Source: Candidatus Gastranaerophilales bacterium (lineage in GTDB: Bacteria > Cyanobacteriota > Vampirovibrionia > Gastranaerophilales > Gastranaerophilaceae). Taken from it: 64,000 bases of DNA. A model generated the notes under the pieces. That model made no database searches. It was not told where the DNA came from and saw only the letters and a program-made list of their open reading frames with translations. The stretch covers positions 62,001 through 126,000 of the forward strand of contig CALVDX010000001.1 of NCBI GenBank assembly GCA_944326425.1, in the 5' to 3' direction. A program made the position numbers and the translations under genes. Of this stretch, positions 45,366 through 50,547 are shown in pieces; within the stretch, counting starts at the first letter, position 1, and each line of letters starts with the position of its first letter.

Positions 45366-47291
45366 TTGAATAAACAGTATTCAAAGAGAGTAATAAGTAT
45401 AATTTTGGGATTTTTGTTATTAGGCACACTCCCGGGGACTTGTGCTGAGGATTCAAGTGTTGTAGATACTTCCCAATTAAGTGAAACAAGTACAATAAAT
45501 ATCGGTACCCCTGTTCAACCGGTAGAATTTAATACTGTTTATATTAAAGACATAGAAATTTTAGGCTCTAATATTATCCGCCCTGAAAATATAAAAAATG
45601 TAATGCAGCTAAAAAAAGGCGATGTGTACGATGAAGAATTGCTGCAGCAGGATTTGTCCAAAATTTTTAATATGGGTTATTTTACGGATAACATGAAGGC
45701 TATTCCTATACGTTCTGCTGATGATACTGTTACTTTAAAAATTCTTCTGGAAGAAAATATTCCTGTAACTGATTTTACAATTGAAGGAAATACGGTTGTT
45801 TCAACAGAGGAATTAATGCCTTATTTACTTCCATTAAAAGGAAAACCCCAGAACATTACCACTATAAATGAAGCTATTGAAAAAATTAATGATAAATATT
45901 ACTCAAAGGGGTATATTCTCGCACGGATTGATTCTTTTTACGATGATCCGGACGGTGTTCTTAATTTAAGAATAAATGAAGGCCGTATTAATAAGATCAT
46001 GATTGTGGGGAATGAAAAAACAAAAGACTACGTTGTTGAACGTAATATTATGACAGAGCCGGGAACGGTATATAACGAAAATCTGGTAAAACAGGATCTT
46101 GTTAAATTATATTCAACTCAGTCATTTAAAGATGTTAACCGTCAGGTTGATGTAAGTGAAGAAAATCCGGATTTATATGATGTTACAATAGTTTTAAAAG
46201 AACAAAGAACAGCTTCCGTATCCGTAGGCGGCGGTTTGGATTCTGTAACCGGTGTGTTCGGTTCGCTTGGTATTGCAGATAATAACTTCAGAGGATTAAA
46301 TCAAAGGGTATCCTTATCAGGTATGATAGGTACCGGTGTTTTAATGAGCGATGCATCCATAAAAGATCACATGAATTTTCAGGCAGAATTAAGCTTTTTT
46401 GAACCATATTTTTTGAATGCTGATACCTCTTTAATGAGCCGTGTATTTTTCAGAGATTTGGGCAGCTATCAGGTTCCGCTGGCTATTGAACAGCGTCTGG
46501 GTGTTGAAGCAACTGCCTACCATCGTTTGAAATTTAATGAACATTTGCAAAGTACCTTTACTCTGGGGATAGAAAATATTAACTTAAAAGAGGGTGCTGC
46601 TGATACAATTGCTTCTATGTATGCTGCAAATAATATTCCTATATCAAGAAGGGCTGAAGAACTTGCTGATGGGGCATTCTTTAATATATCTCCCGGACTT
46701 ATATATGATTCCAGAGATACGAACATGAATCCCAGAAACGGGGTTTTGGCTTCGGTTAGATTTGATGAAGCACTTGGCTTGACTGATTTTGAAAAAACAA
46801 ACGGCAGACTTTCCGGTATGGTAAAGAAATATGTTCCTATATTCAAAAAGTCTGCATTATCATTTACTGCTAAAGGCGGTTTGAAAATTCACGGTGATGA
46901 AATGCCTGAAGTTATGGCGTATAAGCTGGGCGGCCCGTATTCAATCAGAGGTTTTAAAATTAACGGGGTTGGTACCGGTGAATCTTATATCATGGGTTCT
47001 GTTGAGTTAACTACTCCAATACCGTTTTTTGACAGGCTTAAGTTTAAGTTCTTTGATAATATAAGACTTGCATTCTTCGTTGATGCAGGTAAAATCTTTG
47101 ATCCTACTATTGCTTCAACTCTGTATGACAGGCCGTTGTATGCAATTACAGCCGGTGTAGGGTTAAAAGTTTATGTTCCCGGTGTTGGTCCAATGTCTAT
47201 TGATTATGGTATTCCTCTTACCAATTCCGGTGATTACGGCTCACCGAACGGATACTTTACGTTTGGTGTAGGCGATATGATGTACTACTAA
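45366..47291 (+). CDS. Omp85/BamA-family outer membrane protein
   Basis: This 641-residue protein has a signal peptide (MNKQYSKRVISIILGFLLLG), three POTRA-like domains (about 55-125, 130-205, 207-280; each with a G-N-x-(I/V) motif such as IEGNTVVSTEEL) and a C-terminal beta-barrel with GFKINGVGTGESYIMGSVEL and VGPMSIDYGIPL. It folds barrels into the outer membrane. It starts at TTG after AGGTGAG. Three POTRAs match cyanobacterial Omp85 rather than the five of E. coli BamA. Confidence 0.9.
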   Translation: MNKQYSKRVISIILGFLLLGTLPGTCAEDSSVVDTSQLSETSTINIGTPVQPVEFNTVYIKDIEILGSNIIRPENIKNVMQLKKGDVYDEELLQQDLSKIFNMGYFTDNMKAIPIRSADDTVTLKILLEENIPVTDFTIEGNTVVSTEELMPYLLPLKGKPQNITTINEAIEKINDKYYSKGYILARIDSFYDDPDGVLNLRINEGRINKIMIVGNEKTKDYVVERNIMTEPGTVYNENLVKQDLVKLYSTQSFKDVNRQVDVSEENPDLYDVTIVLKEQRTASVSVGGGLDSVTGVFGSLGIADNNFRGLNQRVSLSGMIGTGVLMSDASIKDHMNFQAELSFFEPYFLNADTSLMSRVFFRDLGSYQVPLAIEQRLGVEATAYHRLKFNEHLQSTFTLGIENINLKEGAADTIASMYAANNIPISRRAEELADGAFFNISPGLIYDSRDTNMNPRNGVLASVRFDEALGLTDFEKTNGRLSGMVKKYVPIFKKSALSFTAKGGLKIHGDEMPEVMAYKLGGPYSIRGFKINGVGTGESYIMGSVELTTPIPFFDRLKFKFFDNIRLAFFVDAGKIFDPTIASTLYDRPLYAITAGVGLKVYVPGVGPMSIDYGIPLTNSGDYGSPNGYFTFGVGDMMYY

Positions 47292-47308: not shown

Positions 47309-47758
47309 ATGAAGAAAGTAAAATTGTTTGTTGTAATGGCTGTATTATCATTACTTGCAGCACCGTGTTTTGCTGAAGGACTCGGGTATATTAATTATGA
47401 AAAAGTTATTGCTAATTATGATGCAGCCAAAACTATAGCAAAAGAACTTGATGCAAAGGGCATGGAATTACAGCAGTATTTGATGGACAAGGAAAAAGAA
47501 TTCAAGGCAATTGATACTCCTGTGAAAAAACAAGCGTTTAAAGATAAAATAGCAAACGAGTACAAAGCTAAAGAGGATGCATACATTAAGTATCGTGTAA
47601 CAAAGGAAAAAGAAGTATTTACAAAGATACAAAATGTTGCAAAAGTTATTATGTCGGAACAAAAACTGGATGCGGTTGTCGACATTAAAGCTGTATTCTG
47701 CGGCGGTGTAGATATTACAGATATTGTTATTGAAAGATTAAAAGGAATTAAAAACTAG
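47309..47758 (+). CDS. OmpH/Skp-family periplasmic chaperone
   Basis: This 149-residue protein has a signal peptide (VKLFVVMAVLSLLAAPCFAE), GLGYINYEKVIANYDAAKTI and a long helical middle. Skp holds unfolded outer membrane proteins for the Bam machine, encoded just upstream. AAGGAGG precedes the ATG. Confidence 0.88.
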   Translation: MKKVKLFVVMAVLSLLAAPCFAEGLGYINYEKVIANYDAAKTIAKELDAKGMELQQYLMDKEKEFKAIDTPVKKQAFKDKIANEYKAKEDAYIKYRVTKEKEVFTKIQNVAKVIMSEQKLDAVVDIKAVFCGGVDITDIVIERLKGIKN

Positions 47759-49065
47759 TGCGTGTAATAGATATTATAGAAGCAAAAAAGCAGGGGCGCG
47801 AGCATACAAAAGAAGAGATTGATTTTTTAATTGATTCTCTAATGGATGGTACAGCTGCGGATTATCAGGTTAGTGCCTGGCTTATGGCAGTTTATTTTCA
47901 AGGAATGACAGATGACGAAACGGCATATTTAACTGATGCTATGGTTCGTTCAGGTGAAGTTATTAATCTTGGGGAACTGGCAGGCTCTGTTATTGATAAG
48001 CATTCAACAGGCGGTGTCGGTGATAAAGTTACTATTACTTTAATTCCTCTCCTTGCTGCCTGCGGTGTTCCGGTTGCAAAGCTTTCAGGAAAAGGTCTCG
48101 GGCATACCGGCGGAACGATTGATAAACTGGAGTCTATTCCAGGTTTTAATACGGCACTTTCTATTCCTGATATGATAGCGCAGGTCAAAAAAATCGGGGT
48201 TGCAATCGGGGCGCAAACCCAAAAACTTACTCCTGCTGACGGTAAACTTTACGCACTAAGAGATGTTACAGCAACGGTTGACAGCAGACCGCTTATAGCT
48301 TCATCTGTTGTATCTAAAAAAATAGCCTCCGGAGCGGATAATATTATTTTAGATGTGAAATACGGGGCAGGTGCATTTATGAAAACCCCGGATGATGCTG
48401 TTAAACTCTCTGAGATTATGGTTAAAATAGGCAAAAAACTAAATAAAAACATAACGGCCGTAATTACTTCTATGGATGAACCTTTGGGACGTGCTGTTGG
48501 AAATTCGGTGGAAATAATTGAGGCTATTGAGTTTTTAAAGGGTAATATTACGGATGGTGATATAGCGGAGCTTACGTATGATTTTGCTGCTCTATCACTT
48601 GTGCAGCTTGGTAAATACCCTGATACAGAAAGCGCAAAGAAGTTTATAAAAGAGGTTATATCATCGGGTAAAGCGCTTGAAAAATTCAGGGAGTTAATAG
48701 TAACGCAGGGCGGAGATGCCGGCATTATAGATGATTATACAAAATTCCCTCCGGTAAAATATACTTATGAATTAAAGGCAGATAAAGACGGATATGTACA
48801 ACATATTGATGCCCTTAAGATTGCTTACGGGTGTAAACTTCTCGGTGCCGGCAGAGAAAAGAAGACGGATGAAATTGATTACGGCGTAGGTATTTTCCTT
48901 AACAAAAAGACGGGCGAAACTGTTAAAGCCGGTGATACTCTATGCACAATATATTCTAATGATGAAGCTAAAACACAAAGTGCTGTTAAGTATTGCAAAG
49001 AAGGAATTTTGTTATCTGATACCAAACCTGTGGTACATGATTTAATATATAAAATTATAAAATAA
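47758..49065 (+). CDS. pyrimidine-nucleoside (thymidine) phosphorylase
   Basis: This 435-residue enzyme has DKHSTGGVGDK, SGKGLGHTGGTIDKLESIPG, ALRDVTATVDS and the C-terminal biotinyl-like domain. It splits thymidine or uridine with phosphate for salvage. It starts at GTG overlapping the skp stop (TAGTG). Confidence 0.95.
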   Translation: MRVIDIIEAKKQGREHTKEEIDFLIDSLMDGTAADYQVSAWLMAVYFQGMTDDETAYLTDAMVRSGEVINLGELAGSVIDKHSTGGVGDKVTITLIPLLAACGVPVAKLSGKGLGHTGGTIDKLESIPGFNTALSIPDMIAQVKKIGVAIGAQTQKLTPADGKLYALRDVTATVDSRPLIASSVVSKKIASGADNIILDVKYGAGAFMKTPDDAVKLSEIMVKIGKKLNKNITAVITSMDEPLGRAVGNSVEIIEAIEFLKGNITDGDIAELTYDFAALSLVQLGKYPDTESAKKFIKEVISSGKALEKFRELIVTQGGDAGIIDDYTKFPPVKYTYELKADKDGYVQHIDALKIAYGCKLLGAGREKKTDEIDYGVGIFLNKKTGETVKAGDTLCTIYSNDEAKTQSAVKYCKEGILLSDTKPVVHDLIYKIIK

Positions 49066-49077
49066 AGGCAAATAGAT

Positions 49078-50547
49078 ATGTTTAGACAGAAGATGCAATA
49101 TATGATAAAGTCGGCACCATTAGAGGAACGTCAGGAGCTGGAAGATTTATTGAATGAGATGTCTGATGCCGGCTGGGATTTGTATGGAATGCATGAAGTT
49201 GAAAAAAAAGGCGGAATTTATTTTGATTGCATTTTTTCACGTCCCAGAGAGGACGAAGAACGACATGAATTTGATGATGTTGTAAAAATTAAAAGTTTTA
49301 AAAACCAGATGGAAAAAATGTTTGCATCTACTCTGTCTCCGTATGCAACGTGTAAAGAGCTGCAGGTGAAAATTAAAGAGCAAAAGGAGTTGATTGCCAA
49401 AATTAAATATCAACTGGATAATGATGCCTTTACCCTAAAAGAAAAAGAACTTTTGAATAAACAGCTTTCTGATGAGATGAACAGGCTGGATTTTCTTAAA
49501 TTATCTCTGATAAAAGAAATATCTCCGGATAATATGTATTCCTCACTTTCTCAGGATAAATTTGTTATAAATCTTTCTGAGGAATTAATAGAAACGGTTA
49601 TACAGGATACGGAAGAAAATCTGCTGGCAGAGACTGTTAAAATCCGCCAAAGACTGGCTGATACACTTGGATATGTAATACCTAATATAGTGTTTTCAAA
49701 TGAAGATCCTCTTGAAGCAAATGAATTCAGTATAGTGCTGCATGGAATAGAAGTTTTTAGAGCTTCCGTTTTTCCTGAGAAGGTTTGTATATTTAAAAAC
49801 GAGCTTGAGGGGTATAAGAAGAAAAAAAGTGATATTCATACAAAAGATGCTATTACAGGTAAAGATATTTTCTGGATTGATGAAGAAGTTGCAAGGGATT
49901 TCTGGGTTAATAAACTTACACCTGTACAGTATATTGGCCGTGCTTTAGAGTTTGTATCAGTAAAACAGGTTGATGAAATTCTTGATTATAATGCGGTTAA
50001 CAAGTATATGGAAATAGTTCAGGAAAATAATTCTTTTTTAATTAATAATATTTATCCTGATTATATGTCTGCAGCAGAAATTAAGTATATACTTTCATCT
50101 TTAATAAGAGAAAGGGTTTCTGTTAAAGATATAGTGTACTTGTTTGAAAAAATTAACGATTTTTCATCTGAAGCATCTAAGGACCATTTAATAGAAAAAA
50201 TAAGACTTTCACTTGCAAAACAAATATTAAAGGATATTACAAAAGCAGATGAACCGTTGAAAGTTATAGAACTTTCTTCAAAAACAATTGAACATTTTTA
50301 CGAAGCGTCATTGTGTGCAGAGGATGAAGGGGTTGTAAAAATGGATGGGGCTGATGTTGCAAAGCTGGTTAAAAAAATAAACAAATTGGCAAAAGATGCA
50401 GGAATTGATGAAATTATACTTCTTGCTCCTTACGAAATACGCCACATGACATTCCTGATTTTTGCGGAATTTATAAATAATATTCGTGTTCTTGCATTTG
50501 AAGAACTCGGTCAGGATATAGAAATAGAGACGATTGGTGAAGTTTAA
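49078..50547 (+). CDS. soluble protein with stand-alone FlhA/SctV cytoplasmic domain
   Basis: Residues about 185-489 follow the FlhA cytoplasmic domain block by block: KIRQRLADTLGYVIPNIVFS, IVLHGIEVFRASVFPEK, GKDIFWIDEE, ALEFVSVKQVDEIL, MSAAEIKYILSSLIRERVSV, IRLSLAKQIL, and a final LLAPYEIRHMTFLIFAEF, then EIETIGEV. The N-terminal part has no membrane helices: a small alpha/beta domain (1-55, GWDLYGMHEV, DUF4177-like) and a coiled coil (95-150). Real FlhA has about 325 membrane residues before this domain. It may act as a chaperone-docking decoy or cargo hub. AAAGG precedes the ATG. It follows the phosphorylase. Confidence 0.85.
   Translation: MFRQKMQYMIKSAPLEERQELEDLLNEMSDAGWDLYGMHEVEKKGGIYFDCIFSRPREDEERHEFDDVVKIKSFKNQMEKMFASTLSPYATCKELQVKIKEQKELIAKIKYQLDNDAFTLKEKELLNKQLSDEMNRLDFLKLSLIKEISPDNMYSSLSQDKFVINLSEELIETVIQDTEENLLAETVKIRQRLADTLGYVIPNIVFSNEDPLEANEFSIVLHGIEVFRASVFPEKVCIFKNELEGYKKKKSDIHTKDAITGKDIFWIDEEVARDFWVNKLTPVQYIGRALEFVSVKQVDEILDYNAVNKYMEIVQENNSFLINNIYPDYMSAAEIKYILSSLIRERVSVKDIVYLFEKINDFSSEASKDHLIEKIRLSLAKQILKDITKADEPLKVIELSSKTIEHFYEASLCAEDEGVVKMDGADVAKLVKKINKLAKDAGIDEIILLAPYEIRHMTFLIFAEFINNIRVLAFEELGQDIEIETIGEV

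Follow-up and report, generated by a model that had tools for sequence, protein, structure and literature searches.

A soluble paralog of the FlhA cytoplasmic domain, conserved in Candidatus Gastranaerophilales and related to the FlhA protein of another, non-flagellar-filament type III system

Across type III systems, FlhA and SctV rank among the best-conserved components, and to our knowledge their cytoplasmic ring is known only attached to the export gate. A gene at 49078-50547 of a 64,000-nucleotide stretch of a Candidatus Gastranaerophilales genome (contig CALVDX010000001.1, positions 62,001 to 126,000; hereafter the window) encodes this ring-forming part of FlhA with the membrane half missing, which raises the question of what such a protein is, where it came from, and which process it serves. 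In the open-access literature that we searched, no soluble FlhA paralog is described.

Domain content of the 489-residue protein

The gene, its parts and its upstream neighbours are as follows.

45366..47291, + strand: bamA-like Omp85 gene, first of a putative operon
47309..47758, + strand: skp/ompH-like gene
47758..49065, + strand: pyrimidine-nucleoside phosphorylase gene, 12 bp upstream of the FlhA-C paralog
49078..50547, + strand: soluble FlhA-C paralog gene (489 aa, ATG start), identified by profile, sequence and fold matches
49078..49248, + strand: N-terminal beta-alpha-beta-beta domain, residues 1-57 (AlphaFold model, pLDDT mostly 70-90)
49282..49521, + strand: helix 69-82 and helical hairpin 88-148, running into the position of the FlhA linker (residues 59-69 are of low confidence)
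49522..50544, + strand: FlhA cytoplasmic domain, residues 149-489, with D1 to D4 all present

The preliminary description of this locus had claimed a match to the whole FlhA cytosolic domain, including its C-terminal end, and both profile searches and structure prediction bear this out. The Pfam FHIPEP profile matches residues 144-481 along profile positions 321-656 of 657 (E=1.1e-47; 163 bits, where the cut-off is 29), while the NCBIfam FlhA profile matches residues 147-489 (E=1e-41, 143 bits). The best solved relative by sequence is B. subtilis FlhA-C (3mix, E=1.7e-20), and the AlphaFold model (mean pLDDT 74) matches FlhA-C 6ch2 in Foldseek over 339 columns (E=3.6e-20), such that the protein has the same four-domain fold as the flagellar FlhA-C of Salmonella and B. 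subtilis, at full length and with the C-terminal end. The SctV ring of injectisomes (MxiA, CdsV, SsaV, YscV) also has this fold, but the score of our protein against the NCBIfam SctV profile is lower than against FlhA (6e-25, 88 bits versus 143) and it has no membrane anchor.

The membrane export-gate half is absent, as is apparent from the profile match starting only at position 321 of 657 and from the lack of any hydrophobic segment. The Kyte-Doolittle mean over 19 residues reaches a maximum of 1.2, compared to about 2.9 in full-length FlhAs, a value at which a membrane helix is not expected. In its place, residues 1-148 are predicted to form a beta-alpha-beta-beta unit (residues 6-56), a short helix and the helical hairpin, and hydropathy and the AlphaFold model thus agree with the earlier claim that a small alpha/beta domain plus coiled coil replaces the membrane half of the gate. 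The protein is an FlhA cytoplasmic domain without membrane segments whose N-terminus has been replaced.

The first domain of the new N-terminal part gives no significant Foldseek match, and it was not found in other proteins of 20 genomes searched. A weak resemblance to DUF4177 occurs in 17 of 31 members, with a best E of 0.0022 that lies below any firm threshold, and the window protein itself has no listed DUF4177 match. FliJ binds the FlhA linker, which prompted the idea of a FliJ-like N-terminal hairpin; no FliJ match was found for this part in a Pfam scan, the Foldseek list or the VIA list, and the hairpin's VIA matches (Z up to 10) fall on unrelated helical hairpins.

Two other origins of the gene were considered and rejected. 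A truncated flhA with its membrane part nearby is ruled out by the full-length flhA elsewhere in the same genome (C2:119025-121010), by the presence of the gene in 372 of 383 genomes of the order, and by purifying selection. A phage origin was suggested by phrog_12657, which matches residues 160-487 at 6.7e-16, yet tblastn against phage records found nothing. This viral family of unknown function spans 579 positions and matches the FlhA-C part.

Conservation and descent from FlhA2

The preliminary description had proposed surveying relatives for the gene. Among the 383 Candidatus Gastranaerophilales genomes, drawn from 52 genera, we detected it at a presence threshold of E<1e-50 in 372, about 97% of the sample; the 11 genomes without it are mostly less complete ones. 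Relatives with named records are Candidatus Gastranaerophilales or Melainabacteria, and the gene was absent from the class-level relatives tested. When 31 members are aligned, they match end to end with a mean column identity of 69%, and invariant positions occur in the N-terminal part too. Between close pairs dN/dS is approximately 0.02-0.05 in both halves, a rough value given that dS is saturated, and the gene is under strong purifying selection. It is also retained irrespective of flagellin, being found in all 21 flagellin-positive genomes of the order and in 26 of 27 flagellin-less genomes tested, and the latter makes a flagellar role unlikely.

Many genomes of the order encode two full-length FlhAs, a flagellar one scoring about 870 bits and a second, FlhA2, scoring about 720 bits and falling below the NCBIfam cut-offs of FlhA and SctV alike. 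The flagellar FlhA occurs with flagellins, FliG and FliS, and FlhA2 with a second FliF. FlhA2 is a full gate protein with a membrane half, encoded in a cluster of an FlgC-like rod protein, an SLT transglycosylase, FliE, FliF2, an unnamed protein, FliH, FlhA2 and FliI, the content of which varies, as some genomes do not have all members at the locus (FliI, for example, is there only sometimes). The only similarity seen for the unnamed protein is a very weak one, between its C-terminal part and FliG_N (E=0.027). A second cluster contains FliO, FliP, FliQ, FliR and a SpoA protein (FliN/SctQ-like). Flagellin-less genomes keep FlhA2, FliF2, FliP2 and two rod-type proteins and lack flagellin, FliS and FliG_C. 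We refer to this filament-less system as T3SS-2; example loci are L075:648-8925 and L144:4122-8337.

Earlier genome papers assigned genes of this type either to the flagellum or to an incomplete version of it (PMC3787301, PMC4040986). Di Rienzi et al. 2013 listed two flhA genes among 13 "flagellum-related" genes common to four genomes, one of them in the run flgG-flgG-flgC-fliF-fliH-flhA-fliI-flgE, and noted that MEL.A1 has no filament, cap, or L and P rings (PMC3787301), while Soo et al. 2014 described the flagellar set as incomplete in most of the order (PMC4040986). The second flhA of the Di Rienzi list may be the present gene.

The genome containing the window has a flagellar system with FlhA, FliG, FliS and flagellins. 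Its FliO/P/Q/R and SpoA genes are on contig C15 and its rod genes on C1; the part from FliE to FlhA2 was sought in this assembly and not found, and the flanks of the missing part are at contig ends, on C30 and C7. With the other T3SS-2 genes present and the flanks at contig ends, we rejected the idea that this genome lacks T3SS-2; a gap in the assembly is likelier than a loss of these genes. Elsewhere, G168 has one flagellin match and no flagellar FlhA, FliS or FliG, possibly a relic or a re-used flagellin. Possible giant flagellins were also seen, as Flagellin_N matches within very long frames:

G152:C28:23102-23512: Flagellin_N match in a frame of 3249 aa
G202:C16:36986-37396: Flagellin_N match in a frame of 2238 aa
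G146:C16:11447-11854: Flagellin_N match in a frame of 2085 aa

A tree of the FlhA-C region, to be read with caution for its long branches and uneven composition, places all 37 soluble sequences in one clade (UFBoot 100) within the FlhA2 clade (100). Alternative placements were compared by SH and KH tests on site likelihoods. Forcing the soluble group together with the order's flagellar FlhA is 42 lnL worse (SH p=0.0006, KH p=0.0006), and placing it outside all full-length FlhAs is 30 lnL worse (SH p=0.002); a position as sister to the order's FlhA2 or to all FlhA2 differs by 0.5 lnL, which is indistinguishable, and the split may predate or postdate the divergence from class f3. Sites shared by the soluble proteins and FlhA2 against flagellar FlhA number 15 versus 0, a count left aside as proof because some are ancestral states. 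Origin from flagellar FlhA, including that of the protein's own lineage, is rejected, and the soluble paralog descends from the FlhA2 clade of T3SS-2. FlhA2 (L131, L073, L075) is accordingly its closest full-length relative by phylogeny, with the linker residues P351 and M354 in common.

The sister group of the soluble clade (support 98) is made up of FlhA-C proteins from L122 and L123. These proteins, and one from L124, belong to the same order and likewise have FlhA-C without the normal FlhA membrane half, but differ in being limited to some genera and in carrying a hydrophobic, probably membrane-spanning segment. They begin with the N-terminal domain of the unnamed T3SS-2 protein whose gene lies between fliF2 and fliH (E=1.6e-12, 5.8e-16 and 1.5e-59 for L122, L123 and L124, respectively):

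L122:3374-5149: fusion of this domain to FlhA-C, hydrophobic segment between
L123:4042-5823: fusion of this domain to FlhA-C, hydrophobic segment between
L124:4893-6977: fusion of this domain to FlhA-C, hydrophobic segment between

At L059 and L062, a free copy of the same domain is encoded 2.6-2.9 kb downstream of the soluble gene.

Residues of the chaperone cleft and the ring

We compared 44 soluble sequences with 25 flagellar FlhAs, numbering residues as in E. coli FlhA (692 residues, the same length as the Salmonella protein). The chaperone-binding dimple of Salmonella FlhA includes D456, F459 and T490 (PMC8166844, PMC5932034), where D456 hydrogen-bonds a tyrosine of the chaperone (PMC5932034). 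F459 is invariant in the flagellar proteins and is T or S in all 44 soluble sequences; T490, likewise invariant, is mostly K or R. D456 is kept in 40 of 44. FlhA2 also deviates from flagellar FlhA, at 459 and 461, and SctV similarly lacks the conserved flagellar chaperone cleft (PMC5932034). The GYXLI motif, a switch in FlhA (PMC9431611), is altered in the soluble proteins, with G368 replaced by S in 91%, Y369 by E in 84% and R370 by E in 98%, while FlhA2 retains G368. In contrast to flagellar FlhA, then, the soluble protein is without the membrane half, F459, T490 and GYXLI, and has an extra N-terminal domain.

The ring-forming parts have changed less. Consensus identity to FlhA2 is highest in D1a (0.42) and D3 (0.43) and lowest in D2 (0.14) and D4 (0.21), and D1 and D3 are the domains touched by the linker of the neighbouring subunit in the FlhA ring (PMC8166844). 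R391 is invariant in the soluble proteins, and at the hydrophobic linker residue W354 both FlhA2 and 39 of the 44 soluble proteins have M. Taken at the level of sequence, this pattern fits a retained ring core with altered ligands.

Gene neighbourhood and candidate roles

In the window the gene sits with Omp85 and Skp genes rather than flagellar ones, as the preliminary description had observed, and this setting is real; it holds, however, for only part of the order. Of 44 loci examined, 34 have both bamA and skp upstream of the gene and 27 have a pyrimidine-nucleoside phosphorylase, with one pair of loci having no phosphorylase at all. The co-directional order bamA-skp-phosphorylase-FlhA-C recurs in many genera, with gaps mostly of -35 to +19 bp. 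In different genera, the slot between skp and FlhA-C is filled by PYNP (window:47758-49065) or by an unrelated PNP_UDP_1 protein (L058:7221-7991), and at L072 the phosphorylase is downstream of the FlhA-C gene. In the deeper branches L066-L071, L074 and L076, the gene is in other contexts or alone; the operon is therefore secondary to the history of the gene and an unsure guide to its function. No T3SS-2 genes lie beside the paralog in the window, nor in most relatives.

Our preferred but tentative reading is that the gene encodes a cytosolic FlhA-C paralog whose ring works off the gate, as an accessory platform or regulator of T3SS-2. By this account, FlhA2 of a filament-less, flagellum-derived T3SS-2 was duplicated, and the duplicate would have lost the membrane export-gate half and acquired the small alpha/beta domain and helical hairpin. 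D1, D3 and the linker may still support a ring of the FlhA-C type, made of this protein only or of a mixture with FlhA2, and such a ring could serve T3SS-2 at a distance from the membrane gate, as a regulator or an accessory platform for sorting. The protein would make no use of the cleft in which flagellar FlhA binds chaperones; other ligands would instead be bound by the diverged D2 and D4 and the new N-terminal domain. A link to T3SS-2 is suggested by the origin of the gene, by sister proteins fused to a T3SS-2 component, and by near-complete co-occurrence, although the last is weakly informative, as T3SS-2 is present in nearly the whole order. Class-level relatives (f3) and G254 have T3SS-2 without the gene, so T3SS-2 does not need it. 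Unlike FlhA2, the soluble protein is encoded outside the T3SS-2 operon and its D2 and D4 have diverged; divergence of the linker and GYXLI means that ring formation could have been lost, and the neighbouring genes, which point to envelope biogenesis and nucleoside salvage, count against a T3SS-2 role. The more specific proposal of an order-wide off-gate FlhA-C ring in a FliG-less type III system, acting as a hub in the cytosol and equipped with a new N-terminal domain while FlhA2 stays bound to the gate, is possible but more speculative. A soluble FlhA-C in so large a share of the sampled genomes would allow the working of the ring off the gate to be tested, and the finding highlights a second type III system, one without a filament, in these uncultured gut commensals.

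The main rival is exaptation, an option that the preliminary description had also named, in which the FlhA-C fold was recruited outside secretion, for instance to envelope assembly with BamA and Skp or to regulating nucleoside metabolism, and has ceased to work with type III systems of any kind. The tightly spaced bamA-skp-phosphorylase-FlhA-C arrangement speaks for it, as do the altered D2, D4, chaperone cleft and GYXLI and the distance of the gene from any type III gene in the lineage of the window. We nevertheless regard exaptation as the less likely of the two: deep-branching genera and families have the gene alone or in other contexts, the sister proteins bear a T3SS-2 domain, and no genome of the order was found that clearly has the gene without T3SS-2. 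The assembly of G224 is without FlhA and FliF but keeps FliP2 and rod genes. Far less credible is the suggestion of the preliminary description that a soluble ring docks flagellar export chaperones or regulates flagellar export. It gains something from the flagellar system of the window's own genome and from the conservation of D456, but conflicts with retention of the gene in genomes without flagellin, FliS and FliG, with the changes at F459 and T490, and with descent from outside flagellar FlhA. Also improbable is a regulator that acts on a type III system at the transcriptional or post-transcriptional level, in which FlhA-C would sense substrates or the state of assembly. The HTH-bearing soluble FlhA-C of G004 described below counts in favour of such a role, but the N-terminal domain here is no helix-turn-helix, being predicted as beta-alpha-beta-beta plus hairpin, with no significant fold match for the first domain.

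That protein (L117:4315-5556, on G004:C80), elsewhere in the phylum, is an independent soluble FlhA-C with an N-terminal HTH_17 domain (excisionase-type, E=1.4e-11), and its gene is divergent from a fliP, fliR and flhB cluster. More partial or rearranged FlhA-C proteins are found in the phylum at L118, L119, L120, L121, L125, L126 and L127, and G026 alone has ten FHIPEP matches.
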